The notes under the pieces were generated by a model that saw only the letters and a list, made by a program, of their open reading frames with translations, had not been told where the DNA came from and did no database searches. DNA of 64,000 bases, from contig NZ_VSLZ01000004.1 of assembly GCF_010747475.1 (NCBI RefSeq), positions 1 to 64,000 on the forward strand, written 5' to 3'. Every line of letters starts with the position of its first letter. Positions within the stretch are counted from its first letter, which is position 1. The translations under genes and the position numbers were made by a program. Shown in pieces: positions 19,787-34,363 of this stretch. This DNA comes from Halorussus sp. MSC15.2 (GTDB lineage Archaea > Halobacteriota > Halobacteria > Halobacteriales > Haladaptataceae).

Positions 19787-19834
19787 CGCTAACGCAACCG
19801 TTTACGTAACTGTAAACGTTAACGCAAACGACTT
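19787..19834. repeat. 12-bp array a: four in-phase units with CGNAAACG/CGTTTNCG octamers
   Basis: Units CGCTAACGCAAC, CGTTTACGTAAC, TGTAAACGTTAA and CGCAAACGACTT follow one another with no gap. A CG (once TG) opens every 12 bases. It is the first of a family of such arrays spread from 19.8 to 34.4 kb. Confidence 0.75.
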
Positions 19835-19880
19835 TTGTCTTCGAATCTGCCAGTAACTACCTGATTGCGTCGAAAGAATG

Positions 19881-19906
19881 TACCTCGTGTACCCCTACCC
19901 GAGGTA
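19881..19906 (-). terminator. Possible terminator of the DUF456-DUF192 operon
   Basis: TACCTCG/CGAGGTA forms a perfect 7-bp stem with a 12-base loop, about 60 bases after the minus-strand DUF192 stop. On that strand it is followed by ACATTCTTTCG, weakly T-rich. Confidence 0.35.
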
Positions 19907-19966
19907 TTATTTCGGTCTCACCAATCACATATATGCTTTGTGTTCCGACGAACGACGGTCCGCGCG

Positions 19967-20509
19967 CTACTCCACGGTCGGCGGGGTCCCGTTGAACACG
20001 AGTTCGGTCCCCGGTCCCACGCCGGTCCGGTTCGCGAACCCTCGCGGGAGTTCGACGACGTACTTCGCCTGGCCGTCGCTTGGGTATCTCCGTAACTCGT
20101 CCGTGGACGCGTTCGGCTGTGGACTGGCGTGCCGGACGTTCAGTACCGTTCCGTTGGGTGCGACGAATATCATGTCCAGCGGAATCAGGGTGTTCTTCAT
20201 CCAGAACGACACCTGCTGGGCGTCCTCGTAGACGAACACCATGCCGCTGTTGTTGGCCAGTGACTCGCGGTGCATCAGTCCCGACTGACGCTCTTCGGGT
20301 TCGTCGGCGACTCGCAGGCTCACGGTGACGTTCTCTCCGTCCTCCACCACGAACGTCGCGTTGACGACTCGTTCGACGTCAGTCGTCGTCGGCGGTGTCG
20401 TCGAAGACCCTCCTCGGTCCGCGTCACCCGTGATGGCACCGCTCATTCCGCCTGCACAACCTGCGAGCAGGACCATCGCCCCCACCAGAAGCGCGGCGTA
20501 CGACTCCAT
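19967..20509 (-). CDS. DUF192 family lipoprotein
   Basis: A 180-residue exported protein with a lipobox-like signal (VLLAGCAGG, Cys at about residue 18), a Thr-rich linker and a DUF192 domain: EPEERQSGLMHRESLANNSG, GMVFVYEDAQQVSFWMKNTL and IPLDMIFVAPNGTV are family signatures. The fold is a small beta-barrel of unknown function, often secreted in archaea. It lies 33 bases downstream of the DUF456 gene on the same strand, probably one operon. Confidence 0.9.
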   Translation of the reverse strand: MESYAALLVGAMVLLAGCAGGMSGAITGDADRGGSSTTPPTTTDVERVVNATFVVEDGENVTVSLRVADEPEERQSGLMHRESLANNSGMVFVYEDAQQVSFWMKNTLIPLDMIFVAPNGTVLNVRHASPQPNASTDELRRYPSDGQAKYVVELPRGFANRTGVGPGTELVFNGTPPTVE

Positions 20510-20542
20510 GCCACACTACTACTCCGTGCTTGGACAAAAAGG

Positions 20543-21019
20543 TTAGAACGCCACGAACAAGAACGCGACGAGCAGCGAGAGCGTGACGACCAACTGCACG
20601 AGCGCCGACCCCAGGACTCCGACCGCGGCGAAGACGGCCGCGCGGGTACCCTGCTCGGCGCTTCGGGTTCGATAGAGTTCCGCGACGAACACCGCGCCTG
20701 CGACCCCGAGAACGAGTCCCACCGGCCCGGCGACGAACAGGAGTGGAACGCTGACTAAGGTCGCTACGACCACCGTTTTCGTCGAGGCACCGCCGGCGCT
20801 CGCGGCGAGTGCTCCGCCGAACTGGTCGGTGACGATAGCGGCGACTCCGACCACTGTGAACGCGAGCAACGCCCACGGTCCCGGTTCGGCGTAGCCGGTG
20901 GACCACCAGTAGAGGTAGATTCCGAGCAGCGACAGGCCCGCGCCGGGGACGAGGGGCACCACGCTCCCGACGACCCCAGCAAGCAGGATAGCCAGCGCAA
21001 CGAGGACGAACGGTTCCAT
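20543..21019 (-). CDS. DUF456 family membrane protein
   Basis: A 158-residue membrane protein with four to five hydrophobic segments. Typical DUF456 features: PLVPGAGLSLLGIYLYWW near the N-terminus, VTDQFGGALAASAGGASTKT in the middle and a Gly/Val-rich segment PVGLVLGVAGAVFVAELYR. Function unknown; small-molecule transport or lipid association have been suggested for the family only by topology. The ATG at 21019 is chosen because the frame upstream crosses a repeat array. Confidence 0.85.
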   Translation of the reverse strand: MEPFVLVALAILLAGVVGSVVPLVPGAGLSLLGIYLYWWSTGYAEPGPWALLAFTVVGVAAIVTDQFGGALAASAGGASTKTVVVATLVSVPLLFVAGPVGLVLGVAGAVFVAELYRTRSAEQGTRAAVFAAVGVLGSALVQLVVTLSLLVAFLFVAF

Positions 21020-21081
21020 ACGATTCGACTTCGGGTTCGCGCCCGTTAGCGATTCCGGCCTCGGTCGCGAACGCTCGGGGG

Positions 21082-21141
21082 CGTTTACGTTAACGAAAAC
21101 GCATCCGAAAACGGTACTGGATACGCAATCGTAAATGTTGT
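21082..21141. repeat. 12-bp array b upstream of parA, five units
   Basis: Units CGTTTACGTTAA, CGAAAACGCATC, CGAAAACGGTAC, TGGATACGCAAT and CGTAAATGTTGT run in unbroken 12-base phase between the DUF456 start and the parA promoter. They share the CGNAAACG octamer (or complement) with the parA operator. Confidence 0.78.
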
Positions 21142-21167
21142 TTCCTACACACGTGTCTGACGAAGGA

Positions 21168-21201
21168 TTAAATAGGTCGTTTGCGTTTGCGCAAACGCAA
21201 A
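21168..21201 (+). promoter_or_regulatory. parA promoter with 22-bp perfect palindromic operator
   Basis: A TTAAATA box (21168-21174) is followed by a perfect palindrome at 21180-21201 whose left half is TTTGCGTTTGC. It consists of two overlapping inverted octamers, CGTTTGCG (21184-21191) and CGCAAACG (21190-21197). The palindrome ends two bases before the parA ATG and would cover the transcription start, the position of a repressor site. Confidence 0.75.
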
Positions 21202-21203
21202 TT

Positions 21204-22094
21204 ATGCCTCGCTCCATCCGAGCCTGTACCTTCCTCGACAAGGGCGGTACGGGCAAGACGACCACCGCGGCCCACCTCGGCGTGGCGCTCGCCGAACAGG
21301 GCAACGACGTGTTGCTCATCGACCTCGCGGGCAAGCAGGGTGACCTCGTGAAGCACTTCGGACGTTGGGAGACCGTCGAGCGCCAGATAGCCGAGGACGA
21401 CGACTGGCCCAACATCTCCACGGTCTTCCAAGACCAGTGGAGCGCCATCGCCGAGAAGTTGGGCGACGCCGCGGTCGAAGGACTCATCCTCGACACCGAC
21501 GAGGGCGTGGACCTGATTCCCGCCCACCCCGGTCTTGACAGCCTCGACGCCGAACTGGGTAACATCGACGACGCCCACGACCGCTACTCGCGACTCGATA
21601 CGTTCTTGGACGAGTACATCGAACCGCTGGGCTACGACGCCATCCTCATCGACCTGCCGGGTCTGACGAACAACGTCAGTTACAACGGTCTCTGGGCCGC
21701 CCGGAACGTCATCGCGCCGGTCGAGATGGGACCGTTCGAGTCCGAACAGGCCGAGGCGCTCCGGGCCGACCTCGACAAAATCGGCGCGAACTTCGGCGTG
21801 GACGTGCGACTCGCCATGGTCCTCCCGAACAAGGTCGACACCCGGACGAAACTCGCCGAGGAGTACCTCGACGCCTTCGAGGAGGCGTACCCCGACGCGT
21901 TCGTGTCGTCGCACGTCCCGGTGAGCCAAGACATCCGGAACGCCGCCGAGTCGGGCCGGACCGCGTTCGCGCTCGAAGAGCCATCGACGACTGCCGCGCG
22001 CGCACGCGAAGCATTTCTCGAAACTGCCGCGACACTGACCGAGCGGTTGGAGCGCGCCGAACCGGCAGCGACCACGGGAGGTGAGACGGCGTGA
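21204..22094 (+). CDS. parA: ParA-family partition-type ATPase
   Basis: A 296-residue deviant-Walker ATPase. Walker A is KGGTGKTT at residues 13-20, the A' strand reads DVLLIDLAGKQGDL, and Walker B is YDAILIDLPGLTNNVSY. This is the ParA/Soj/MinD superfamily; such ATPases bind DNA or membrane when ATP-bound and move cargo or plasmids. The ATG at 21204 is chosen because it follows the TATA box and palindrome by the expected leaderless distance. The stop overlaps the next gene by four bases (GTGA). CGNAAACG arrays lie on both sides. No ParB homologue is visible, so the small downstream gene is the likely partner. Confidence 0.92.
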   Translation: MPRSIRACTFLDKGGTGKTTTAAHLGVALAEQGNDVLLIDLAGKQGDLVKHFGRWETVERQIAEDDDWPNISTVFQDQWSAIAEKLGDAAVEGLILDTDEGVDLIPAHPGLDSLDAELGNIDDAHDRYSRLDTFLDEYIEPLGYDAILIDLPGLTNNVSYNGLWAARNVIAPVEMGPFESEQAEALRADLDKIGANFGVDVRLAMVLPNKVDTRTKLAEEYLDAFEEAYPDAFVSSHVPVSQDIRNAAESGRTAFALEEPSTTAARAREAFLETAATLTERLERAEPAATTGGETA

Positions 22095-22483
22095 GCGACC
22101 CCGACCTCGAAGAACTCCGCCAGCAGACCCAACGCACCGACCGTCTGGCCGAACCGGCGAGCAGGGAGGACGAGAGCGACGATTTGGTGGAGGACCTCGT
22201 CGACGCGCTCGCGGCCATCGACTCGGGCGAGCAGGCCAAGACGTTCGCGGCCCGCGACGAGTCGGTGACCGCGCTCCTGACGACGCTGGCAGAACGCGAA
22301 CAGGACCTCGAAGCGGTCGGGACTTCGCTTCAGAGCGCGCTGGGACGGGACGTGGACCGCGACGCGCTCGACCGGAGCGAGGTCGTCCGACTCGCGGTCC
22401 GTCTGGGTCTGCGGGAAGCAGCCCCGGAGTATCTGGACCTCCTCGCGGACGCGTCGGGTGAGTACGCCCGACGCAACTTCTGA
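22091..22483 (+). CDS. Small acidic ParA-partner protein (candidate centromere-binding factor)
   Basis: A 130-residue protein starting at a GTG that overlaps the parA stop by four bases, so it should be co-translated. The N-terminal third is acidic and probably disordered. The C-terminal region (LDRSEVVRLAVRLGLREAAPEY) resembles the helix 1-helix 2 part of ribbon-helix-helix DNA-binding domains. In many plasmid partition operons the gene after parA encodes the centromere binder. Two inverted blocks of CGNAAACG arrays begin 17 bases after its stop. The DNA-binding role is an inference. Confidence 0.7.
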   Translation: MSDPDLEELRQQTQRTDRLAEPASREDESDDLVEDLVDALAAIDSGEQAKTFAARDESVTALLTTLAEREQDLEAVGTSLQSALGRDVDRDALDRSEVVRLAVRLGLREAAPEYLDLLADASGEYARRNF

Positions 22484-22499
22484 CAGGCCGTATCACAGC

Positions 22500-22636
22500 C
22501 GTTTTCGAAATCGTTTTCGACTGCGTTTCCGTTGTGCGTTTACGGCCACGTTGTCGAATTCACTCGCTTTTCGTTTCCGATATCGTTCGCGGTATCGTTT
22601 CCGTTATCGTTTACGAAAATGAAATCGTTTCCACGG
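22500..22636. repeat. 12-bp array c-left: CGTTTNCG-oriented units after the parA operon
   Basis: Two runs: CGTTTTCGAAAT, CGTTTTCGACTG, a 13-base CGTTTCC unit and CGTTTACGGCCA (22500-22548); then CGTTTCCGATAT, CGTTCGCGGTAT, CGTTTCCGTTAT, an 18-base unit from 22608 and CGTTTCCACGG from 22626. All read CGTTTNCG on the plus strand. Confidence 0.78.
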
Positions 22637-22714
22637 CTGTTCACGTGTGGATTTTGATTCGATTCAGTCTCGCGACGCGCCCGCCTTCGTCTCGGCATGT
22701 GTTCCGCGCGAATA

Positions 22715-22750
22715 CGAAAACGTATACGTAAACGTCTACGCAAACGTGGT
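22715..22750. repeat. 12-bp array c-middle: CGNAAACG-oriented units
   Basis: Three exact-phase units, CGAAAACGTATA, CGTAAACGTCTA and CGCAAACGTGGT. Their orientation is opposite to the block at 22500-22636, with about 80 bases of ordinary sequence between. Confidence 0.75.
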
Positions 22751-22812
22751 TGTAGCAGATAGGTTGAGCAGTATTCGTCACCGAAGCCCACACGACTCGG
22801 TGGTACGGTGGA

Positions 22813-22862
22813 CGGAAACGTATCCGTAAACGAAATCGCAAACGATTTCAAAAACGTAAGCG
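22813..22862. repeat. 12-bp array c-right: CGNAAACG-oriented units
   Basis: Four units, CGGAAACGTATC, CGTAAACGAAAT, CGCAAACGATTT and CAAAAACGTAAG, then a further CG. It ends about 75 bases before the next gene and completes the 457-base intergenic region after the parA operon. Confidence 0.75.
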
Positions 22863-22938
22863 TCCACTACCTGCGAACGATATTGGATTCTGACACGCGA
22901 CGTAGAGATTGATAAGTGATGACGATGTACTATCGCCC

Positions 22939-23328
22939 GTGACCGACGACGCGCCGACGTTCGACATCCCGCGCCGCCCCGAGCGCGTCTACCCGCGCGA
23001 CGGGGGCGTGGAGTACGAGGGGGGAACCGTCTTTCGTCTCTCGCCCGAGCCGGAGCGTCCCGAACGGGAGTTAGCCGCGCTCGTCGAGGGCGTTCTGGAC
23101 GGCGACCGCTACACCTACGGCGACTGGTTCGAACTCCCCGCGCCGGTGTATCTGGTCCACGACGAACGCCACTCTACCGCCTTCCGCATCGTGATTCGCT
23201 ACGGGAGCGTGGAGTTCCACGTCCTGCCGGAGACGGCGGAAGAGGCCCTGCGTGGGATGTACTCCCGACTCCGGGAGTTCGGCGAGTGTCGGTGGAACGT
23301 CGCTTGCGAGACGACTCGGCCGGACTGA
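22939..23328 (+). CDS. Conserved hypothetical protein
   Basis: A 129-residue acidic soluble protein starting at a GTG; a TTGATAAG element about 28 bases upstream favours this start over an in-frame TTG at 22909. It has a plausible mixed alpha/beta domain (APVYLVHDERHSTAFRIVIR, GSVEFHVLPETAEEALRGMYSRL) and no recognised motif. It lies next to the repeat region but points away from it. No function can be assigned. Confidence 0.68.
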   Translation: MTDDAPTFDIPRRPERVYPRDGGVEYEGGTVFRLSPEPERPERELAALVEGVLDGDRYTYGDWFELPAPVYLVHDERHSTAFRIVIRYGSVEFHVLPETAEEALRGMYSRLREFGECRWNVACETTRPD

Positions 23329-23459
23329 CCCCTCCGCCTTCGACTTTACCTCGAACCCGTATCTCGCGTCACGGTGGCCTCCAACTTTCGTTCTCGGACC
23401 ATCGACGGGTCCCCGCGAGCGCGGTAGCTTTTTACCGTCCCCGCGACACCGCAGACGTA

Positions 23460-24128
23460 ATGAACCTCCCCACGACCGACGACGCCGAATTGCGCACGAG
23501 CGACACCGCATCCGAGATGTGGGAGTTCGCCGAGGACGCCGACCCCGCGCAGGCCCGGCGCGCCTACCCGAGCGGGTGGCTCTGGCTGACGGGCGAAGAG
23601 TCTGTTCGGTCGCTTCTCGCGGCGTTGCTCGACGCCGACCCGGACGCCCGTTACGGCGAGGACGACCTGGCGTCGCGTTCGGACCTCTCCGAGGCGGCGG
23701 TAGCGGAAGCCATCGACGCGCTCATCTCGCTCGGCGTGCTGGTCGCCGACGACGGTGCCTACCGCGTCAACGAACACGCTATCGTCTACCACGCGGCGCG
23801 GGAACTCTCGGCCGCCGTCGAGACCACCGGCGCGCCCGACGACGAGGGCGGGTTGGCGTACCTCGCGCGACTCGAATCGGTGCGACTCATGCTCGACGCG
23901 CTGTTGGAGGCCGACCCCGACCAGTCGCTCACGCAAGAGGACGTTCACCTGCTCACGGGCGTCTCGCGCAAGCGGGTCTGGCTTCACGTCGAGAAGTTAG
24001 TGGACCTCGGCGTCCTCGAAGAGTCCGGCGACGAGTACGTCGTCGGACCCGATTGCACCGTCCTCCGGTGGGTACAGTCGCTCGATGCGGCGGTCGTCGG
24101 TGCGACGCTCGCCCCGTCGCATCCCTGA
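23460..24128 (+). CDS. Double winged-helix regulator-like protein
   Basis: A 222-residue protein with two related winged-helix units: SVRSLLAALLDADPDARYGE followed by DLASRSDLSEAAVAEAIDAL (residues about 45-95), and SVRLMLDALLEADPDQSLTQ followed by DVHLLTGVSRKRVWLHVEKL (about 135-190). The two units look like an internal duplication. It resembles haloarchaeal HTH families of unknown targets. The ATG at 23460 follows a CTTTTTACC element at 23427, about 30 bases upstream. Confidence 0.75.
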   Translation: MNLPTTDDAELRTSDTASEMWEFAEDADPAQARRAYPSGWLWLTGEESVRSLLAALLDADPDARYGEDDLASRSDLSEAAVAEAIDALISLGVLVADDGAYRVNEHAIVYHAARELSAAVETTGAPDDEGGLAYLARLESVRLMLDALLEADPDQSLTQEDVHLLTGVSRKRVWLHVEKLVDLGVLEESGDEYVVGPDCTVLRWVQSLDAAVVGATLAPSHP

Positions 24129-24206
24129 ATTCGCGGTCGTTCCTTCCGGTCGCTTCGATTTCGGAATCTCGTCTCTCCGTGACTCGTAGGTACGGTTCGA
24201 ACGACG

Positions 24207-24500
24207 TTACGCGGTCGCTTCCTGTGGCAGGTCCACGTACTGGGACTCCCACTCGCGGCGGGCCTCGATTTCTCGGTCGCCGCGGCGGGTCAGGGTGTAG
24301 TAGTTCGTCCGACGGTCGCGCTGGCCCTTCTCGACGAACCCTTTGTCCACGAGGGTATCGAGGTTCGGGTAGAGTCGGCCGTGGTGAATCTCTTTCTCGT
24401 AGTACGATTCGAGTTCGTCCTTGATAGCGAGACCGTGCGGTTCGTCTAACCCCGCGATGACGTATAGCAAGTCTCTCTGAAAGCCTGTCAGGTCGTACAT
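24207..24500 (-). CDS. PadR-family transcriptional regulator
   Basis: A 97-residue PadR-type winged helix: LTGFQRDLLYVIAGLDEPHG, then LAIKDELESYYEKEIHHGRL, YPNLDTLVDKGFVEKG and the wing RRTNYYTLTRRG. PadR proteins normally repress stress or efflux genes and bind DNA as dimers; this one is the short haloarchaeal form without a long C-terminal helix. It stands alone on the minus strand upstream of no obvious target. Confidence 0.93.
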   Translation of the reverse strand: MYDLTGFQRDLLYVIAGLDEPHGLAIKDELESYYEKEIHHGRLYPNLDTLVDKGFVEKGQRDRRTNYYTLTRRGDREIEARREWESQYVDLPQEATA

Positions 24501-24602
24501 CGTCTCCCCTTTTAGATTGGAACCTACCTATCGGGAAAAGGATGATGGCCGTTTCGAGAACCGAGACCTGTCACGGTCAGAAGATAGCGAAATCGACCGA
24601 CG

Positions 24603-25337
24603 CTACGGGTCTGCCCCCGTTAAGCATTCCATACTCACTGATTCGACCCACATGTCGCCCACCGCGGAGTCGTCGGCCCGACTCGCACGAGGGACGCCGA
24701 CTATCCGCACTTCGTCGCCCTCCGACACTGTGCCCGTCAGGTCGTGTTCGAGCAGGACCGGGAGTCCGTCGCCGCCCGCCGGGTCCCGCACCGTCACCTC
24801 TTGGGCATCGACGTACTCGCTCGCCTCCGGCGCGAACGAGAGGTATCCGACCGAACTGCACCGCGGACACTTGGCGTTCGTCCGGAACTCCCGGCCCGAC
24901 TGGGCGACGTGGCGCGTGACCGCCTCGCACTTCGCGCACCGGAACCCCGCACGGACCACCTTCGGCCGGAGCGGCCCTGTCTCGGCGACGACGCCCCGCA
25001 TCGTGTGGAGGCTGTTGAGGTGGGTCGCCCGGAGGTCCGAGAGCGCCACCTCGCTCTCCGCGGGGAGGTCGCTGATTCGGAGGTAGACGTCGCGGAGGTC
25101 GCGGTCGGACTCCCCGGAGAGGAACCGCGAGAGCGCGGCCTTCCCCGCTCGCAACGCTTCGTCGGGGTTCGAGAGCAGCGGCCGCACGAATCGGTAGTCG
25201 TGACCGAACCGGTCGCAACTGACCGACAGCGCGCGCTCGTCGGGGTAGTTCTCGACGAACCGGCGCACCGACTCGTCGCGGTCGCGGTAGACGTACTCGC
25301 ACCACTTCTCGGTCAGGTCGCCGTTTCGCACTGCCAT
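24603..25337 (-). CDS. Stand-alone MCM N-terminal (OB-fold/zinc) domain protein lacking the helicase
   Basis: A 244-residue protein matching the non-catalytic half of the MCM replicative helicase. It has the helical A-domain (FVRPLLSNPDEALRAGKAAL), the OB-fold (VYLRISDLP, LNSLHTMRGVVAETGPLRPK), the zinc site Cys134/Cys137 (CAKC) with Cys157/Cys160 (CPRC), and the later FAPEASEYVDAQEVTVRDP and LVLEHDL-like VLLEHDLTGTVSEGDEVRIVG segments. It ends before any Walker motif, so it cannot hydrolyse ATP. It could modulate MCM loading or act as a single-strand binder. It lies between CGNAAACG array regions. The family match is made by eye. Confidence 0.75.
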   Translation of the reverse strand: MAVRNGDLTEKWCEYVYRDRDESVRRFVENYPDERALSVSCDRFGHDYRFVRPLLSNPDEALRAGKAALSRFLSGESDRDLRDVYLRISDLPAESEVALSDLRATHLNSLHTMRGVVAETGPLRPKVVRAGFRCAKCEAVTRHVAQSGREFRTNAKCPRCSSVGYLSFAPEASEYVDAQEVTVRDPAGGDGLPVLLEHDLTGTVSEGDEVRIVGVPRASRADDSAVGDMWVESVSMECLTGADP

Positions 25338-25816
25338 GGACGACCGTTCCGGCGCGTCGGTCTTTGTTACACACCTCCTGCCGGTCGCTCGTCCGACTTA
25401 GCGTCGTCCTGTGGTCGCAGTGCGGTCGGGCCTCGACGGAGGCGTCATCGTCTCTAGTGCCGGTATCGCCCGCGTTCCCGGTCCGATTTCCGTCTCCGTT
25501 TTCCGTTCCGTCAGCGTCACCGATTCCGTTTTCATTATCGTTTTCGAAACCGTTTACGTAAACATTTGCGTCAGGTCCGCCGGAGTCAGTCGCGTTGTCG
25601 GACTCGAACTGGACTCGGCGGGCGTATCGACCGAGTGCATCGGTACCCCCTCTGAATATGGACACGCCGTACCGAGTCAATCTGCACTGTGTCGTCCCGG
25701 CCGCAAACGCATACCTGTCGCCCAAACTTCGACGAACGCACCACCTTCGAATCGTCTCCCATTCACACCCGCAACTGCACCCGCAATTTATGACCTCTCG
25801 GGTGTCATTACCTATC
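25338..25816. other. Divergent intergenic region with CG-phased array
   Basis: Separates the MCM-like gene and the FAD/Fe-S dehydrogenase. It contains the phased array at 25485-25570 and, at 25786-25791, a TTTATG box 27-31 bases before the dehydrogenase ATG. Open frames crossing it are low-complexity products of the repeats and are not taken as genes. Confidence 0.55.
25485..25570. repeat. Array d: CG dinucleotide every 6 bases, with 12-bp CGTTTNCG units
   Basis: CG occurs at 25491, 25497, 25509, 25515, 25521, 25527, 25539, 25545, 25551, 25557 and 25569, all in the same 6-base phase. The clearest 12-bp units are CGTTTTCGAAAC (25539) and CGTTTACGTAAA (25551). It reveals that the basic period of the family is six. 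Confidence 0.7.
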
Positions 25817-28795
25817 ATGTCGTCTCCGCCCGCCGACGGTCTCGACGTCGAGAGCTACCGCGAATCGGTCGGTATCGACGCGCCCGACGACCCCGCTCAC
25901 ACCGAACTGGCGGCCGCCCTCCGCCGGGCGTGCGAGGGCGAGGTCCGGTTCGACGAGTACACTCAGATTCTGTACGCGACCGACGGGAGCATCTACCAAG
26001 CCCGGCCCGCGGGCGTCGTCTTCCCGACCGACGCCGCCGACGCGCAGACCGCGATGGCGGTGGCGGCCGACCACGACGCGCCGGTTCTGCCCCGCGGCGC
26101 TGGGTCGTCGCTGGCCGGGCAGGCCGTCGGTCCCGGGTGCGTCGTCGTCGACTTTACGCGGCACATGGACGCGATTCTGGACGTGGACCCCGAGACCGAG
26201 CGTGCGACGGTCCAACCCGGCGTCGTGCAGGACGACCTCGATTCGCGTCTCGCGGAGGACGGCCTGAAGTTCGCGCCCGACCCGGCGTCGTCGAACCGCG
26301 CGACGGTCGGCGGAGGTATCGGAAACAACTCGACGGGCGCACACTCGGTCCGGTACGGCATCACCGACGCCTACGTCGAGGCGGTCGAAGCGGTCCTCGC
26401 CGACGGAAGCCGGATTCGCGCCCGAGAGGTCGAATTCGACGGTCCCGAGTACGAGCGTATCGTTTCGAAGGACGACCGCGAGGCCCACATTTACCGCACG
26501 GTCCGCGCCATCGTGGAGGGGAACGCCGAGGAGATAGCCGAGCGATACCCGGACCTCAAGCGGTCGGTGTCTGGCTACAACCTCCACGAGTGCGTTTACG
26601 AAAACGCAAACGGAAACGAATGCGTAAATCTCGCCAAGCTGTTCGTCGGCGCGGAGGGGACGCTGGGCGTCGTGACCGAGGCGACCCTCTCGCTGGTCTC
26701 CAAACCCGACGAGACGGCGGTGGCGCTCTACTGCTTCTCGGACCTGCTGTCGGCGATGGAGGCGGTCCCCGTCGCGCTCGACTACGACCCGAGTGCGGTC
26801 GAACTCATGGACGACGAGGTGTTCCGACTGGCCCGGGAGTCCGCAGAGTACGCGGAGTACGCCGACCCGATTCCCGACGACGCCGCGGCCGCGCTGATGC
26901 TGGAGTTCGACTCGGAGGTCCACGACGACCTGACCGACGCCGTCGCCGAGACCAACGCGGAGTTCGTCCGCGATGGCGAGGCCTTCGACGTGCTGGAGGC
27001 TTACGACGACGAGTCGCAGGCGAAACTGTGGAAACTCCGGAAGGCCGCCATCCCCCTGCTGATGAGCATGGAGGGCGACCCCAAGCCCTACCCATTCATC
27101 GAGGACGCCTCGGTGCCGCCCGCGGAACTGGCCGAGTACGTGCAGGGGTTCGAGGGCGTCTTGGAGGCCCACGACACCTCGGCGGCCTACTTCGCCCACG
27201 CCGGAAGCGGCACCCTCCACGTTCGACCGGTGCTGAACCTCAAGTCCGAGGCGGACGTCGAGAAGATGCAGTCCATCGCCGAGGACGTGACCTCGCTCGT
27301 TCTCGACCACCACGGGTCGTTCTCCGGTGAGCACGGCGACGGACTGGCCCGCACCCAGTTCAATCCCAAGATGTACGGCCCGGAGCTATGGGACGCCTTC
27401 AAGCAACTCAAGACCGCCTTCGACCCAGACTGGCGGATGAACCCCGGGAAGGTGGTCTTCGAGGAGGAGTCACCCACCGACATGCGCGAGAACCTGCGGT
27501 ACGGCCCGGCCTACTCGTCGCTCGAACCCGCGACCGAGCAGGATTTCTCCAAGGAGGGCGGCTTCTCGCACCTCGTGGAACTCTGCAACGGGTGCGGAAC
27601 GTGCCGACAGACCGACTCCGACGTGATGTGTCCCTCCTACCGCGGCATGGACGAGGAGGTGGCGACCACTCGCGGCCGGGCCAACATGCTCCGGGCCGCC
27701 ATCTCCGGCGAACTCCCGCCTGAAGAGATGCACACCGAACGATTCCAGAAGGAGGTGCTGGACCTCTGTCTCGGCTGTAAGGGCTGCCAGAGCGACTGCC
27801 CGACCGGCGTGGACCTCGCCAAACTCAAAGCCGAGGTCAAACACCGATACCACGAGGAGGAGGGCGCGAGCCTGCGCGAGCGACTGTTCGCCGAGGCGGA
27901 CCGACTGGCCGCGGTCGGGTCCGCGCTCGCGCCGGTGTCGAACTGGCTGGCCGACCTGCCGGGGACTGGTCTCGTCGCCGAGAAGGCGCTGGGCGTCGCC
28001 CGCGAGCGCGACGTCCCGGCGTTCGCCGACCAGTCGTTCGAGGCGTGGTTCGAGTCCCGCGGCGGTCCCCGAGTCCCTGAGTCCCGCGCCGACGACAGGG
28101 TCCTGCTCGTGCCGGACACCTACACCAACTACGTCTATCCCCGGACCGGCCGGGCCGCGGTGCAGGTCCTCGAAGCCGCGGGCGTCCACGTTCGAGTTCC
28201 CGACGCCGACCCGAGCGGCCGCCCTGCCTACTCCGAGGGATTCCTCGACGTGGCGCGCGAACGCGCCGAGTCGAACGTCGTCCGCTTCGCCCCGCGGGTC
28301 CGCGATGGCTGGTCGGTCGTCTACCCCGAACCCTCCGACGCAGCGATGGTGCAGGACGAGTATCTGGACCTGCTCCCCGACGCCGAGGGGGCCGCGGCGC
28401 TCGCCGAGAACGCCTACGGCGTCTGCGAGTACCTCGACCTGACCGGCCGCGACGAGGAAATCGAGTTCGACGCCCCTGCAGACCGACTCGCCTACCACGG
28501 CCACTGCAACCAGAAGGCGCTTGGCACCGCCGACCACGCCGCCGCGGTCCTCGACCGGGCGGGCTACGACGTGGCCGCGCTCGACTCGGGCTGTTGCGGT
28601 ATGGCCGGGAGCTTCGGCTACCACACCGAACACTACGACCTCTCGCAGGCCATCGCCGACGACCTGCGCGACCGGATTTCCGAGGCCGACGCCGACGAGG
28701 TGGTCGCACCGGGCGCGTCCTGCCGGTCACAACTCGAAACCCAGCGTCCGACCCACCCCGTCGAGAAGTTGGCCGCGGCGCTCCCGTGGCGCTGA
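25817..28795 (+). CDS. FAD-linked oxidase fused to Fe-S/CCG domain (D-lactate/glycolate dehydrogenase-like)
   Basis: A 992-residue fusion. Residues about 30-530 are a GlcD-type FAD-binding oxidase (PRGAGSSLAGQAVG, ASSNRATVGGGIGNNSTGAH, LFVGAEGTLGVVTEA, HHGSFSGEHGDGLAR). Residues about 590-680 carry two ferredoxin-like clusters (CNGCGTC and CLGCKGCQSDCPTG). The C-terminus has a CCG-type domain (GHCNQKALG, SGCCGMAGSFGYH). Such enzymes oxidise D-2-hydroxyacids at the membrane and pass electrons to quinone; the exact substrate is unknown. A TTTATG box fits the ATG at 25817. Residues about 259-271 (VYENANGNECVN) come from an in-frame 12-bp repeat array. Confidence 0.9.
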   Translation: MSSPPADGLDVESYRESVGIDAPDDPAHTELAAALRRACEGEVRFDEYTQILYATDGSIYQARPAGVVFPTDAADAQTAMAVAADHDAPVLPRGAGSSLAGQAVGPGCVVVDFTRHMDAILDVDPETERATVQPGVVQDDLDSRLAEDGLKFAPDPASSNRATVGGGIGNNSTGAHSVRYGITDAYVEAVEAVLADGSRIRAREVEFDGPEYERIVSKDDREAHIYRTVRAIVEGNAEEIAERYPDLKRSVSGYNLHECVYENANGNECVNLAKLFVGAEGTLGVVTEATLSLVSKPDETAVALYCFSDLLSAMEAVPVALDYDPSAVELMDDEVFRLARESAEYAEYADPIPDDAAAALMLEFDSEVHDDLTDAVAETNAEFVRDGEAFDVLEAYDDESQAKLWKLRKAAIPLLMSMEGDPKPYPFIEDASVPPAELAEYVQGFEGVLEAHDTSAAYFAHAGSGTLHVRPVLNLKSEADVEKMQSIAEDVTSLVLDHHGSFSGEHGDGLARTQFNPKMYGPELWDAFKQLKTAFDPDWRMNPGKVVFEEESPTDMRENLRYGPAYSSLEPATEQDFSKEGGFSHLVELCNGCGTCRQTDSDVMCPSYRGMDEEVATTRGRANMLRAAISGELPPEEMHTERFQKEVLDLCLGCKGCQSDCPTGVDLAKLKAEVKHRYHEEEGASLRERLFAEADRLAAVGSALAPVSNWLADLPGTGLVAEKALGVARERDVPAFADQSFEAWFESRGGPRVPESRADDRVLLVPDTYTNYVYPRTGRAAVQVLEAAGVHVRVPDADPSGRPAYSEGFLDVARERAESNVVRFAPRVRDGWSVVYPEPSDAAMVQDEYLDLLPDAEGAAALAENAYGVCEYLDLTGRDEEIEFDAPADRLAYHGHCNQKALGTADHAAAVLDRAGYDVAALDSGCCGMAGSFGYHTEHYDLSQAIADDLRDRISEADADEVVAPGASCRSQLETQRPTHPVEKLAAALPWR
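26593..26628. repeat. Array e: three 12-bp units inside the FAD/Fe-S dehydrogenase gene
   Basis: CGTTTACGAAAA, CGCAAACGGAAA and CGAATGCGTAAA in exact phase. Because 12 is a multiple of three the array keeps the frame and adds an Asn/Glu/Val-rich loop just before the conserved NLAKLFVGAEGTLG motif. Confidence 0.75.
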
Positions 28796-28968
28796 CGGCG
28801 AACCCGCGGACCGGCGGTGGTCGTAACATTCGCTGACCGAGCCGTCCCGACTATCGGTTCAGACGCCGACGGTGATTCGCTACGTTCCCGCACGCTGCCA
28901 ATTATCCACACTGGTAATCACCGGATAGGTTTAAACCTCTGGACCGTGAAACGCCTCCAAGTAGCGAA

Positions 28969-29247
28969 ATGCAACCGATGGAAATCGCCTACGTCGTTCT
29001 CAGCGTGACCCTCGTAATCGCGGGTCTGACGCTGGTCGCGATGGCGGCACGCGCGTACATCGAAACGGAGAACCGAGCGATGCTGTTGCTCTCTATCGGG
29101 TTCTCGTTCGTCGTGGCCGCGGCGGTGGCCACCACCTTCAGCGCGTTCCTGACCGACTTCACGCGGAGTCGCCTCCTGTTGACGGTCAACTACGCGGTGA
29201 CGACGGTCGGGTACGTCTTCATCGTGTCGAGCGTTCGGACGCAGTAA
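28969..29247 (+). CDS. Small three-helix membrane protein (DUF7521-like)
   Basis: A 92-residue protein with three predicted membrane segments: residues 5-27, 37-60 and 68-88, with charged loops RAYIETENRA and TDFTRSRLL. Haloarchaea encode many such small membrane proteins (DUF7521, from memory) commonly beside winged-helix regulators, though none adjoins here. A GTTTAAACC element at 28929 is a probable promoter. Met4 is an alternative start. Function unknown. Confidence 0.7.
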   Translation: MQPMEIAYVVLSVTLVIAGLTLVAMAARAYIETENRAMLLLSIGFSFVVAAAVATTFSAFLTDFTRSRLLLTVNYAVTTVGYVFIVSSVRTQ

Positions 29248-29592
29248 CTCGGTCCTACTTCTGTCGGTCGTGGGTTGTCGGACGTGTTCGCGCTCTCCTT
29301 CTATCGTGGTGTTGCGGTTGAAGGTGGAGACTGTGTGGAGTGGGAGGATGGAGGTGTGGGTGAATATTGGAGGTAATACGAGGTTCGGACTGTAGGTGAC
29401 ACGAAGGAGGAGGCTGTTTGTGGCACGAAGGGAACGACAGTCGGAAAGAAGCTAGCTACTGCTCGAGCAAGTGAGTACGGCAACTGCGCTGCCCCCTCCA
29501 GAACAGCACCGCGACAGCCTCGAACCTCCCACCGGACCGGCCGTTCTGCCGCCTCGGAAACCTACTTGCCGCGCGACGCCGACGGTTCCCTC
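29248..29592. other. Purine/G-rich intergenic stretch
   Basis: No convincing gene. From about 29310 to 29450 the plus strand is strongly purine-rich with many GG and GGG runs (29322-29372), plus two similar segments GTGACACGAAGG and GTGGCACGAAGG. This is unlike the rest of the window and may be a decayed element, structured RNA or G-quadruplex-prone DNA. Confidence 0.4.
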
Positions 29593-30369
29593 GTGACAGA
29601 CGCCTCCGAATTCAAGCGACGACTCCGCGACGGCGACGCCGTGGTCGGCCACTGGCTCTCCATCGGCCACGCCGCGGTCGCAGAGGTCTGCGCCCGCGAC
29701 GCCGACTTCGCGGTCGTGGACACCGAACACGCACCGACCGACATCGACACCGTCGCCGACACCGTCCGGGCCGTGGAGGCCGCGGGCGACGGGACCACCG
29801 CCGCGCTCGCTCGCGCCGCGTGGAACGACCCCGTGCGAATCAAGCGGTTGCTGGACACCGGCGTCGCCGGCGTCCTCGTCCCGATGGTCGAGACCGCAGC
29901 GGAGGCCCGCGAGGCGGTCGAAGCCACACGCTACCCGCCGGAGGGCGTCCGGGGCATCGCCGGGTCGCGCGCCAACGACTACGGCCGGGACCTCGCCGAG
30001 CAGGTCGCGTCCGGCGGCGACCACCTCGTGACCGTCGTGCAGGTCGAGACCGAGCGCGCGGCCGAGAACGCCGCCGACATCGCCGCGGTCGAGGGCGTGG
30101 ACGCACTGCTCGTCGGTCCCGCCGACCTCTCGGGGTCGTTGGGCGTGTTCGGCGAGTACGACTCCGAGACATTCCGCGAGACCGTCGAGGATGTCCTCGA
30201 CCGCGCCCACGAGTCCGAGACGCCGGTCGGCACCCTCGCCACCTCCGAGGATGAGATTCGGCGTTGGAGCGACTACGGCTACGACTACCAGATAGTCGGC
30301 ACCGACGCGGGCTACCTCGCCAGCGGTGCCGAGCGCGCTCACGACGCGTACGACGACGCGATGCGATGA
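29593..30369 (+). CDS. HpcH/HpaI-family aldolase
   Basis: A 258-residue class II (metal-dependent) aldolase of the HpaI type, which cleaves 4-hydroxy-2-oxo acids such as 4-hydroxy-2-oxoheptanedioate or 2-keto-3-deoxysugar acids. Signatures: GHWLSIGHAAVAEVCARDAD, FAVVDTEHAP (metal/base region), GVAGVLVPMVETAAEA, VRGIAGSRANDYG (usual G-rich RASxYG motif altered) and ALLVGPADLSGSLG. The GTG at 29593 gives the normal family length; an upstream TTG at 29566 is less likely. Its stop overlaps the next ATG by four bases (ATGA). Confidence 0.9.
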   Translation: MTDASEFKRRLRDGDAVVGHWLSIGHAAVAEVCARDADFAVVDTEHAPTDIDTVADTVRAVEAAGDGTTAALARAAWNDPVRIKRLLDTGVAGVLVPMVETAAEAREAVEATRYPPEGVRGIAGSRANDYGRDLAEQVASGGDHLVTVVQVETERAAENAADIAAVEGVDALLVGPADLSGSLGVFGEYDSETFRETVEDVLDRAHESETPVGTLATSEDEIRRWSDYGYDYQIVGTDAGYLASGAERAHDAYDDAMR

Positions 30370-31662
30370 CGGGCGACCCGCCCGATTCCCCGTTCGCGTC
30401 GCCCGACCTGACCTGCTACCGGTGCGGCCGGACCGCGGCCTTTCCCGACCGCAAGCGATGCGAGTGCGGCGAACCGCTCTGGTTCGACACTGCCGAGCGG
30501 CCGCAGACTTCGAGTGGCCCGTCTCCGAGCGGTCGGTACGCCGCGGCGGCGGAGATTCCGGGGTCTGGCGCTACGCCGACCTCCTGCCGGTCGGACCTCT
30601 CGCTGGCGCGAACGCGGGCGTCGCCGCGGCCGCTGGCGCGACCCCGCTCGTCCGCGTTCCGGACCTCGACGCCGGATGCAGACTCCACCTCAAAGACGAG
30701 AGCGAGAATCCGACGGGCAGTTTCAAGGACCGCGGGAGCGCGGTCGGCGCGGCGTGGGCCAGCGCGGCGGGACGCGACTGGGTCGGCACCGTCTCGCACG
30801 GCAACATGGCCATCAGCGTGGCCGCCAACGCCGCCGGGAGCGGTCCCGACGGCCCGAACGCGCTCGTGCTGGTCCCCGACGACATCTCGGGCGAGCGACT
30901 CGCGGCCATCGCCCGGTACGACCCAGCGGTTCTCCGGGTGGCGGGCGATTACGGCCGACTCTACTACGACGCCCTCGACGCCGACGCGCCGGTCGAGTTC
31001 GTCAACTCCGACACGCCCCTCCGCGTGGCCGGGCAGAAGACCACGGCGCTGGAACTCTGCGAGGCGTTCGCGTCGGCGGGGGGCGCGTCCGGACCGACGG
31101 GCGCGAGTTCCCCCGCGCCGGACGCTATCGTCCTCCCGGTGAGCAGCGGGGGCCACGCTAGCGCGACGTGGAAGGCCCTGCGCGAACTCCGGGCCGCGGG
31201 CCTGCTCGCCGAGTCCGACCTGCCGAGACTCTACCTCGTACAGGCCGCGGCCTGCGACCCCATCGCGGCCGCCTACCGCCGGGGCGCGGACGAGGTGACC
31301 GCAGCAAGCGACACCGAGGACACCGTCGCCTACTCCATCGCCAACGCGGACCCGCCGAGCGGGACGCGGGCGCTCGCGGCTGCCCGCGAGACCGGGGGCG
31401 CGGTCCTCTCGGTGCCGGACGACGCGATTCTGGACGCGAAGGCCGACCTCGCGGCGACGCGGGCTTCTGCGTCGAATCGGCCTCCGCGACGACGCTCGCC
31501 GGGGTTCGGCGACTCTCGGAGCGCGGCGAACTCGCACCGGACGACGACGTGGTCGCGGTGCTGACGGGGACCGGATTCCGCGAACTCGACGCCGACGGCG
31601 AGAAGCCGGACGCCGTCGGACTCGACGACCTGCCGGAGCGTCTGCGGGCGCTCACCAGTTGA
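30366..31662 (+). pseudogene. Threonine-synthase-like PLP enzyme with two frameshifts
   Basis: The product would be about 430 residues: an N-terminal zinc ribbon (CYRCGRTAAFPDRKRCECGEPLWF), then a fold-type II PLP domain with the catalytic lysine in ENPTGSFKDRGS and the PLP-phosphate loop VSSGGHASATWKAL. The frame changes near 30500 (before ADFEWPVSERSV) and again near 31460 (before GDAGFCVESASATTLAG), ending in VVAVLTGTGFRELD at 31662. Each break is fixed by one added base. The ATG overlaps the aldolase stop, so the pair forms an operon. It could be a threonine synthase paralogue or related lyase. Real decay or sequence error remain open. Confidence 0.75.
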
Positions 31663-31680
31663 CGAACAGCCGTCGGGGAA

Positions 31681-31920
31681 TCACTCCTCCGCGAAGACGA
31701 ACGACTCGATTTCACGGCGTTCGCCCTCTGGGTCGTCGTTCTCGTACTTGTATCGAACCCCGTCTTCCTCGTCCTCGGTGACTCGATGCGCCCCGTCGCA
31801 GAAGGGGTACTCTTCCGAGAGACCGCAGAGGCAAACGGCGACGTCGCCTTTCTCCTCGTCCAAGTCGCTCTCGTCGAGTTTGAGCGGACCGGTCGCGTCG
31901 TGGGTAATCTCGCGGACCAT
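31681..31920 (-). CDS. CDGSH iron-sulfur domain protein
   Basis: A 79-residue acidic protein carrying one CDGSH-type [2Fe-2S] site with the three-Cys-one-His ligand set Cys30, Cys32, Cys41 and His45 (CLCGLSEEYPFCDGAH). Such domains act in redox sensing, electron transfer or Fe-S handling. Residues 1-20 (GPLKLDESDL) match the usual N-terminal strand. It is 39 bases downstream of the OYE-type gene on the same strand, so the two may be co-transcribed. Confidence 0.93.
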   Translation of the reverse strand: MVREITHDATGPLKLDESDLDEEKGDVAVCLCGLSEEYPFCDGAHRVTEDEEDGVRYKYENDDPEGERREIESFVFAEE

Positions 31921-31959
31921 GGCCGACGGTAGCGTCCGGGCCTCCTTATCTCTGGTCGG

Positions 31960-33273
31960 TCAGTCCCGTTCGTACGTACCCTCGCGCTCCAGTTCGCCGC
32001 GCTCGGCCAGCACCTCCGGCGTCCGGCAGACTCCGTTCGCGCCGGTGACCTGCGGGACGGTGCAGTTGTTGCAGTTGTCGCAGACCGCCTCGGCCGCGTC
32101 GTTGGCCGAATCGAGGAGGCGCGCGGGCAGTCGCGGTTCGGCGTAGAACGGGCGGCCCATCCCGACCGCGTCGCAGACCTGCTCGGAGCCATCGCTTCCG
32201 AGCAAGTCGTCAATCTGCTCGCGGCTCCGAATCCCGCCCTCCAGCAGGACCGGGACGGACGTCCGCTCGCGGACGCGCCGGGCGAGGTCGGCGTTCCACC
32301 CCGGTTCGAAGTCGTATGCGACCGCCTCGACGCGATTCGCGGCCGCGACCAGCGCCGCCTTCCACCTGCTCCCGAACGCCGCGACGTACCCCTCGCGGAA
32401 CTGCTCGTCACGCCACGCTCGGTCGGGAAACCGCCCGCGGACGATGCTCATGTCCCAGAACGTCGAACACCGGACCGGCACGAGCGCGTCGTAGCCGATG
32501 CGGTCGAGGCGCGCACAGATTTCGACGGCGTCGTCGTCGGTGAGATGTCGCCGGACGAACGGCGGCGACGCCGTCTCGGCGGGCACTTTCGCGACGAGAG
32601 CAACGTCGCCCGCCCGCGCCCGAATCTCGTCGTGTACTACCTCCAAGAAGCGCACGCCGTCGGCGAACTCGTCGTCCCGGCGGTTGTAGAACGGCGAGAG
32701 GAACTGCTGGAAGATGCCCATGTTCGCCCCGGCGAGGTGGACACCGTCGTAGCCCGCGTCGTCGGCGTTGGCCGCGCACCGACCGACGTCAGCGGCGAGT
32801 TCGTACACCTCCTCGGTCGAGAGGACGCGCGCGTCGAGGGCGAGGAAGCCGAGTCGGTCGGCGAGTCGGAGTGGCCACGGCGGTTCTGACACGGCGAGTT
32901 GCGACAACTCCGGGTTGGCCCGGCGGTACTCGGCGTGCCACGTCTCCATAGTCCGGAGACCGCCGTGGTCCAACTGGGCGAAGATGCGTCCGCCGTGGTC
33001 GTGTATCGCGTCGGTGAGCGCCGACAGGGTCCGCGCGAACTCAGGGTCCGCGAGCGGGGTCATCGAGGGCGCGACCCGGCCGCCCTCCTCGCGAACGGGG
33101 GCCGCCCCCTGAAAGACGAGTCCGGCCCCGGCCGCCGCCGCGGGTTCGAGTTCGCTCGCGAGCGTCTCGGGGGCGTCCGGTCCGTCGCCAGCGCATTCGA
33201 GCAGGGGCGCGCGATACAGTCTGTTCGGGAGTTCTAGACCCCCGACTTCGAGGGGCGCTTCGAGTTCGGGCAC
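31960..33273 (-). CDS. Old-yellow-enzyme-type NADH:flavin oxidoreductase with C-terminal Cys cluster
   Basis: A 437-residue TIM-barrel flavoenzyme. Visible features: start PLEVGGLELPNRLYRAPL (FMN strand 1), RIFAQLDHGG, AGYDGVHLAGANMGIFQQFLSPFYNRRDDEFADG, and the FMN phosphate region VPVLLEGGIRSREQ plus AVGMGRPFYAEP. The C-terminus has CDNCNNC followed by a distant Cys, resembling the [4Fe-4S] ligands of 2,4-dienoyl-CoA reductase-like members, but with no FAD/NAD domains after it. The substrate is unknown. A CDGSH protein follows, a possible redox partner. Confidence 0.9.
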   Translation of the reverse strand: MPELEAPLEVGGLELPNRLYRAPLLECAGDGPDAPETLASELEPAAAAGAGLVFQGAAPVREEGGRVAPSMTPLADPEFARTLSALTDAIHDHGGRIFAQLDHGGLRTMETWHAEYRRANPELSQLAVSEPPWPLRLADRLGFLALDARVLSTEEVYELAADVGRCAANADDAGYDGVHLAGANMGIFQQFLSPFYNRRDDEFADGVRFLEVVHDEIRARAGDVALVAKVPAETASPPFVRRHLTDDDAVEICARLDRIGYDALVPVRCSTFWDMSIVRGRFPDRAWRDEQFREGYVAAFGSRWKAALVAAANRVEAVAYDFEPGWNADLARRVRERTSVPVLLEGGIRSREQIDDLLGSDGSEQVCDAVGMGRPFYAEPRLPARLLDSANDAAEAVCDNCNNCTVPQVTGANGVCRTPEVLAERGELEREGTYERD

Positions 33274-33638
33274 GCTCTCGTCTCTCTTCGACGGGTTTCG
33301 GGTAAAGTGTTGGGCCGCCGTCCGGTGCGCGCCGATTCCGTGATAACACGTAAATATCTTACTTTGAGGACTATCTACCTATCTCTGAGAATTCTATTTC
33401 TGTGCGATGCGAAACACTTATTATTCCCCGCAACGAAATATTACACAGGAAGTAAAGTAGAAATAAAATCGCTGCTTTTTTCTAACAGTTCCCCGTAGAT
33501 ACGTCTCCGGCGCTCGCATACTAGACGCTCGAACGCTCTCGACGACGAACTACACGCTAACCGACCCGACGAGCGACGCGTGGCGCGACCGCTCGCCGGA
33601 CCGTCGTGCGACGCGACACCCGACCACAGAACGCACCC
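33274..33638. other. AT-rich divergent intergenic region
   Basis: From about 33340 to 33500 the sequence is markedly AT-rich (TAAATATCTTACTTT, ACTTATTATTCC, AAATATTACACAGG, AGAAATAAAATCG) in a GC-rich genome. It holds promoters for the OYE-type gene (minus) and possibly the Nudix gene (plus). No gene is seen; horizontally acquired DNA or a replication/regulatory element are possible. Confidence 0.45.
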
Positions 33639-34190
33639 ATGCCAGAGACATCTACGGAAACCACCGACGACGTATCACCCGCCGACTCGCTCACCGACCC
33701 GGAACGCCTGCGCGACCGGGCCGACGTTCCGTTCACCAGCGAGGAGGCTATGCACGACGACCGGGACCACTGTAACACCGACACCGCCGGACGGGCCGTG
33801 GTCGGCCTGACCAACGACGCGGGCGACGTCCTACTCGCAGTCCACAAGGAGGAGTCCGTCGCCATGCTCCCGCATTGCGGCGTCGAACCGGGCGAGGACT
33901 GGGCCGCAGTCGCCCGCGGGACGGTCGAGATAACGACCGACCTCCCCTTCGAACTCGACGGCGTGGAGGCCGTCAGGGAGATAGACCACTTCGCCGAAGG
34001 CGAGGACGAACCGCACGCCACGACGTACGGCGTCGTCTTCCGCGCTTCGGTCGCGGGCGACCCCGACACCGCCGACCCCAGTCACGACGAGAACGAGCAC
34101 TGGGACGCCGACTGGTTCGACGCGGTTCCGGAGAACACGCCCGAGGGGTCGGGTCTCGTGGAGGACGACATCCGACTGTTCGTGGACTGA
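33639..34190 (+). CDS. Nudix-fold protein with degenerate Nudix box
   Basis: A 183-residue acidic protein resembling haloarchaeal Nudix hydrolases: AVVGLTNDAGDVLLAVHKEE, LPHCGVEPGEDWAAVARGTV and a C-terminal WFDAVPENTPEGSG. The Nudix box consensus GX5EX7REUXEEXGU is not kept: the segment after GVEPGED reads WAAVARGTVEITTDL, so the REUXEE metal-binding core is lost. It is probably not a standard pyrophosphatase. The ATG at 33639 fits the family start better than one at 33606. Confidence 0.75.
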   Translation: MPETSTETTDDVSPADSLTDPERLRDRADVPFTSEEAMHDDRDHCNTDTAGRAVVGLTNDAGDVLLAVHKEESVAMLPHCGVEPGEDWAAVARGTVEITTDLPFELDGVEAVREIDHFAEGEDEPHATTYGVVFRASVAGDPDTADPSHDENEHWDADWFDAVPENTPEGSGLVEDDIRLFVD

Positions 34191-34315
34191 CCGTCGACAC
34201 TCGGCGCGACCGGCGGTACCGCTCGGCGCGGAGGCGGCGTCGGTCCCGCGTCTCGTCTCGTTCGTTTACAAGACCGTGAGCGCGCTCCCACCGAGACCGT
34301 CTTCGAAACTCCTCC

Positions 34316-34363
34316 CGTTTTCGTATCCGCAAACGTTTGCGTTTTCGAAATCGAAAACAGTCT
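34316..34363. repeat. 12-bp array f, four units
   Basis: CGTTTTCGTATC, CGCAAACGTTTG, CGTTTTCGAAAT and CGAAAACAGTCT in exact 12-base phase, alternating in octamer orientation, between the ends of the convergent Nudix and HTTM genes. This is the array farthest from parA. Confidence 0.75.

Follow-up and report, generated by a model that had tools for sequence, protein, structure and literature searches.

Phased hexad arrays flanking a ParA–partner operon, a candidate centromere and operator on a Halorussus plasmid

The parS sites of plasmid pSM19035 consist of 7–10 contiguous 7-bp heptads (WATCACW), whose contiguity is required and of which at least four are needed for full stimulation of ParA (PMC9499535). 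In Sulfolobales, the SegB site is a 13-bp palindrome, TCTAGA-S-TCTAGA (PMC12284271). A 2016 review counted the appearance of archaeal plasmid and chromosome centromeres, and multi-replicon segregation in halophilic archaea, among the open questions (PMC5120986). Here we analysed a 64,000-nucleotide stretch of Halorussus sp. MSC15.2 (the window; the first 64 kb of the 405-kb contig C4, NZ_VSLZ01000004.1), in which arrays of short phased repeats surround a parA gene and the small gene directly behind it, hereafter the partner. From the sequence, these arrays probably represent the centromere (parS) and operator that a 405-kb Halorussus plasmid uses in a type Ib-like partition system, with the partner serving as ParB; we put the probability of this reading at roughly 0.86.

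In mechanism the system would most likely resemble type Ib systems, pSM19035 above all. It shares with the delta/omega system of that plasmid a small ParA, a small site-specific partner (putative here), contiguous short units in both orientations and several sites overlapping par-gene promoters. Unlike pSM19035, it is archaeal, its unit measures 6 bp (12 or 13 bp in relatives), one array lies inside a coding region, and the partner has no detectable sequence relationship to its counterpart. Bacterial type Ib ParABS systems likewise combine a small ParA lacking an N-terminal helix-turn-helix with a small partner and sites at the operon promoter, but here the partner belongs to a new family without a recognised domain, and the sites follow a hexad grammar, flank the operon on both sides and reach kilobases away. 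SegAB also pairs an archaeal ParA-like ATPase with a small site-specific binder (again putative here) and has sites 5′ of the operon and elsewhere; its 13-bp two-hexad site recalls a 13-bp class of our partner family. By contrast, SegB sites are single palindromes scattered over the chromosome, whereas the CGNAAA arrays cluster at the operon, and a partner-family profile run against the PDB gave zero matches to SegB chains at E-values up to 10. The AspA–ParB–ParA system of pNOB8 (PMC5120986) similarly serves archaeal plasmid partition through a site-specific binder covering DNA beside its own gene, as the partner may do, but there the components are three proteins and a single 23-bp palindrome, with spreading, rather than two proteins and explicit arrays. 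An open-access literature search returned no account of the present system; subscription papers lay outside that search.

Array grammar and distribution on the replicon

The CGNAAACG octamer occurs 44 times in the window, compared with 19.0 ± 4.1 (maximum 31) in dinucleotide shuffles, and octamer pairs at a distance of 12 bp (CGNAAACGNNNNCGNAAACG) occur ten times, compared with none in 100 shuffles. The phased arrays described in the initial annotation are therefore real and beyond chance; about 31 octamers lie within the arrays listed there, in line with the 30 or so units claimed. Across the 4.4-Mb genome we found 13 such pairs, of which ten fall at C4:21094–26618, less than 6 kb from parA, bearing out the reported clustering around this gene; the other three all lie at a single site, C4:353125. 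A reversed-pattern control gave 0 pairs in the whole genome. On the full 405-kb replicon, ten strong hexad arrays were detected, whereas none arose in any of 20 third-order Markov simulations. Two strong arrays lie beyond the window, at C4:164779 and C4:353125 (L151 and L046), with apparent counterparts at positions 199608 and 380746 in H. aquaticus; the one at C4:353125 sits between small hypothetical genes.

To define the unit, we pooled 403 in-array octamers from 14 Halorussus species, in which 553 of 574 spacings of up to 60 bp (96%) were multiples of 6. The 12-bp octamer unit first proposed thus gives way to a 6-bp hexad, CGNAAA / TTTNCG, with columns CG-N-(A/T)(A/T)-N. Two earlier descriptions needed adjustment: the phase was said to be kept exactly across most blocks, but the octamer at 22537 is 1 bp off; and the listed blocks are real, but those at 19787 and 25485 are degenerate, and a palindrome at 21178–21201 had been missed. 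The orientation of neighbouring hexads is strongly biased, with a TTT-type hexad on the left and an AAA-type hexad on the right in 44 cases against 10 of the reverse at 6-bp spacing, and in 41 against 3 at 12-bp spacing. Because TTT-type hexads favour the left and AAA-type hexads the right, the arrays are organised around dyads such as CGTTTNCGNAAACG.

Both orientations and the dyad bias speak against a mobile or slippage-expanded simple repeat. Slippage does occur: in G074, an otherwise varied array 5′ of par (C2:41735–41814, L044) contains seven near-identical tandem 12-bp CGGAAACGATAG units, evidently a recent 12-bp expansion. Genuine (CGGAAA)n microsatellites also exist in other haloarchaea, with long examples in unrelated species at G296:C1:1143822–1143937, G330:C62:164235–164314 and elsewhere. 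Nevertheless, array positions are fixed while sequences differ between species, arrays are missing where the operon is missing, and one has been erased in a host gene far from par (see below). We therefore regard this explanation, which the initial annotation had offered as one option, as scarcely credible. A plain microsatellite, which that annotation had rightly dismissed, was rejected on the variable units and dual orientation, and the (CGGAAA)n runs elsewhere look different and are scattered. At least one match to the octamer pattern occurs in 180 of 392 genomes of the order, but such raw counts are misleading, since isolated matches dispersed over the genomes and runs of (CGGAAA)n push the totals up. 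Two other candidates were discarded: an RNA element (zero Rfam matches across 18–36 kb) and a virus or phage origin (neither ParA nor the partner had relatives in IMG/VR scans, and a single phage match was remote and confined to ParA).

Conservation of the operon and its arrays in Halorussus

The complete plasmid unnamed1 of H. aquaticus (434 kb) is the near-identical counterpart of contig C4, and orthologues of it, likewise complete plasmids and 303–558 kb long, are found in H. pelagicus, H. caseinilyticus, H. limi, H. salilacus and H. vallis. ParA carries a deviant Walker A motif (KGGTGKT) at about residue 12, lacks an N-terminal DNA-binding domain, and matches Pfam AAA_31 (5.5e-18) and CbiA (8e-16); its nearest solved relative in the PDB is a Soj-type segregation protein. 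With orthologues of 86–99% identity in 13 further genomes, parA is present in 14 of 18 Halorussus genomes, and these 14 all have arrays. Three near-complete genomes without the operon (G082, G097 and G147) contain zero octamer pairs; the fourth genome without a parA orthologue, G149, is 62% complete. Within 10 kb of parA lie 110 of the 140 octamer pairs of the 14 species.

Between these species, the sequence of the arrays varies while their position is fixed. The approximate positions relative to parA are −20 to −26, −98 to −165 and −1.1 to −1.8 kb on the upstream side (the last two with arrays in 14 of 14 species) and +1.3 to +1.65 kb on the downstream side; most species have extra arrays at about +4 kb and +5 kb, the one at +3.8 to +4.8 kb being present in 13 of 14. 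The palindrome adjoining the parA ATG (−20 to −26) is nearly invariant in all 14 species and lies downstream of a TATA-like TTAAATA sequence and a conserved GTCTGACG element. Together with the neighbouring array, it provides repeated candidate centromere sites at the operon promoter throughout the 14 species, as in type Ib systems. This placement fits binding by an autorepressor and marks the palindrome as a candidate autoregulatory operator. Just 5′ of the TATA-like box, a GTCTGAC(G) element (21155–21162) recurs in 43 of 71 distant systems and in 14 of 14 Halorussus species; it could belong to the promoter or be where a second regulator binds.

An array overlapping the parA promoter region in 14 of 14 species, along with the intergenic location of some others, would also suit a system of regulatory operators only, in which the partner is an autorepressor that additionally controls neighbouring genes and has no centromere role. 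We consider this improbable, since each locus holds at least seven arrays, always centred on the ParA operon, of which one lies within a coding region and several lie behind genes rather than at promoters. Type Ib ParB proteins commonly act as repressor and centromere binder at once, and the two roles are therefore compatible.

The array within a coding region, at 26587, is spelled out by codon choice (GTT TAC GAA AAC GCA AAC GGA AAC) in a dehydrogenase gene, and is maintained there at the DNA level. Dehydrogenase orthologues near par keep the in-frame array. G017 has this gene 105 kb away from par, with an equal-length segment that reads GTC TAC GAG AAC GAC GCG GGC GAG, the lattice being lost and the surrounding protein kept. 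Because the lattice is erased at 105 kb while the protein is retained, the array appears to be under selection as DNA, and near par only. The orthologue of G082, a genome without the operon, keeps the CG-every-6 lattice with most AAA cores gone, as if the array were decaying after an apparent loss of the operon.

The partner family and co-variation with array motifs

The GTG start of the partner gene overlaps the parA stop, and the partner immediately follows parA throughout Halorussus and in most of the distant systems. Plasmid-borne relatives of the partner are listed as 'hypothetical protein', and neither Pfam nor NCBIfam assigned the partner to a family. Among 23 members of the partner family, there was no Pfam match to the ParB/Srx CTPase domain of CTP-dependent ParB proteins, and one member matched RHH_1 at E = 0.52. 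Of 392 genomes from the order, 87 contain a member of the family, and these members are spread over 32 of 95 genera. Most relatives have phased arrays of their own at the same two places, 5′ of parA and behind the partner, built on another hexad with a 6-, 12- or 13-bp period. At these places, 71 distant systems showed excess 4-mer recurrence at lags of 6, 7, 12, 13, 24 and 26 (z up to 27), whereas control stretches far from the operon gave much weaker recurrence, mainly at multiples of 3, as in coding DNA.

The hexad differs with a short segment of the partner (KTxSxRD/KTxSxWD). KTVSVWDG-type partners are accompanied by CTATAG every 12 bp, KTLSVRD partners by CGTATA, KT(I/V)AVRD partners and the KTFAARD partner of Halorussus by CGNAAA, SNLTLRD/SNITVRD partners by GTATCT/GATAC at 13 bp, and ENINIRD partners by GTAACC at 13 bp. 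The period follows the same classes: 12 bp for SxWD, 6 or 12 bp for AxRD and SxRD, and 6, 7 or 13 bp for TxRD. Sliding an 8-residue window along the partner in 48 dereplicated systems, we compared partner similarity with array similarity. The best predictor was the segment TVSVWDGHLAAF, with a partial rho of 0.38 after allowing for the remainder of the partner, and 99% of permutation maxima fell below 0.21; once this segment is known, ParA similarity contributes nothing (0.001). The KTFAARD segment of Halorussus falls where the partner family tracks the array motif. With 52% to an SVRD relative and 52% to an AVRD relative, Halorussus is roughly as far from the one as from the other, but it has the motif of the AVRD group. 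As predicted, CGTTTNCGNAAACG lay no more than about 8 kb from the operon in six of six tested AVRD-partner genomes outside the genus; it was absent from seven of eight genomes without an AVRD-type partner, the remaining one, G082, being the species with apparent operon loss and having one copy.

Fixed positions in 14 species, co-occurrence with the operon, the palindrome and partner co-variation together lend strong support to the initial annotation's proposal of a protein-binding element linked to parA. The partner is the candidate binder and would read the arrays as a ParB analogue. Recurrence of the operon–array layout, with a motif that tracks the partner segment, also bears on whether the arrays are replication-origin iterons for an initiator. 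Phased short repeats clustered on a replicon near a maintenance operon do look iteron-like, but the Orc1/Cdc6 match lies at C4:372–373 kb, which on a circular contig would be some 53 kb away from par, and no initiator is annotated next to the arrays in H. aquaticus; we hold an iteron function to be very improbable. This Orc1/Cdc6 match (G000:C4:372159–373254), the sole one of the replicon, is split across two frames, which suggests a frameshift or sequencing error.

On balance, we lean towards a joint proposal: that haloarchaea share a modular centromere code in which about eight partner residues (KTxSxRD, KTxSxWD, SNLTLRD and others) set the hexad sequence and its lattice (6, 12 or 13 bp), and that the ParA–partner operon family using it is mostly plasmid-borne, with some members on main-chromosome-sized contigs. 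Partner genes on chromosome-sized contigs (at least 3.8 Mb where the length was seen) are located at G204:C1:1302331, G334:C1:3875520, G236:C1:2852140, G302:C1:2537625 and G391:C1:2003077; they belong either to integrated plasmids or to a par system serving the main chromosome. Systems residing in one genome may differ in their hexads, as orthogonality demands, for instance in G391, G135 and G017, but may also be of the same class, as in G361 (C41/C39) and G069 (C102/C116). Because of these two same-class pairs, orthogonality is a tendency only. In G017, the genome that also has the Halorussus-type operon, the second, diverged parA–partner operon (C19:13652–14880, L056) has the hexads CATATA/GATACA, and its ParA match holds one in-frame TAA.

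The features of the locus are collected in Table 1. Near par, two arrays flank a gene (24603–25337) whose 244-aa product contains an MCM OB-fold domain (Pfam 4e-15). The orthologue of the array-hosting dehydrogenase in H. aquaticus is annotated 'FAD-binding and (Fe-S)-binding domain-containing protein'.

Table 1. Features of the par locus in window coordinates
Feature	Position	Strand	Basis
parA, 296-aa Walker ATPase	21204..22094	+	Pfam AAA_31, CbiA; Halorussus orthologues
Partner gene, 130 aa, proposed centromere-binding protein (ParB analogue)	22091..22483	+	Gene order, family, KTFAARD segment
24-bp palindrome CGTTTGCGTTTGCGCAAACGCAAA, four hexads, proposed operator and nucleation site	21178..21201	.	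Near-invariance in 14 species
Hexad array 5′ of parA, CGTTTA CGTTAA CGAAAA CGCATC CGAAAA CG	21076..21115	.	Counterparts in 14/14 species
Hexad array right behind partner gene, CGTTTN orientation	22500..22544	.	Pattern and cross-species position
Hexad array, CGTTTN orientation; in phase with the 22500 array, starts 72 bp apart	22572..22620	.	
Hexad array, CGNAAA orientation	22709..22748	.	
Hexad array, CGNAAA orientation	22813..22846	.	
Degenerate hexad array, 1.4 kb 5′ of parA; good core 19799–19830	19787..19830	.	
Degenerate array; good core 25539–25558	25485..25562	.	Counterpart in 13/14 species
Hexad array within dehydrogenase reading frame, encodes CVYENANGNECVN	26587..26628	.	Near-par orthologues carry array
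FAD/Fe-S dehydrogenase, array host, outside par system	25817..28795	+	H. aquaticus orthologue annotation
Outlying intergenic array, 7 hexads	34316..34359	.	

Proposed partition mechanism and its weighing

In the partition system that we propose, the partner would bind the hexads CGNAAA / TTTNCG, nucleating at dyads such as CGTTTNCGNAAACG and docking side by side in 6-bp steps. The resulting multi-protein partition complex would cover roughly eight clusters in about 15 kb, and nucleoid-bound ParA would tether and move it. At the array copy beside the parA start, the partner would repress its own operon in a feedback loop. We infer that the partner binds and oligomerises, that ParA is stimulated, that the plasmid is stabilised and that the operon is autorepressed.

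Several observations weigh against this interpretation. The partner homologues L022, L024 and L027 (and, weakly, L023, L089 and L090) have no clear array, and the strong arrays at C4:164779 and C4:353125 lie far from par. The co-variation test draws on related sequences and a simple permutation, with phylogeny not fully modelled. An AlphaFold model of the partner, built from seven sequences, is helical and of low confidence (pLDDT 60); a profile search of the PDB with the partner family gave no credible match; and hhalign comparison of the partner with five ribbon-helix-helix (RHH) sequences, one of them from the window, gave no significant match. Owing to the poor model, the lack of credible PDB or domain matches and the non-significant alignments, an RHH fold for the partner, to which the strand-like KTxSxRD segment might point, is a suggestive lead only. 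Finally, haloarchaea are polyploid, so it should not be taken for granted that they require active partition.

For the genus, the analysis supplies a concrete candidate centromere, a candidate operator and a probable binder on plasmids of 300–560 kb found throughout Halorussus. For the order, it outlines a recognition relationship that can be addressed with synthetic DNA, so that multi-replicon segregation becomes directly testable. If the proposed code is true, it would let several replicons of one polyploid cell hold non-interfering centromeres.

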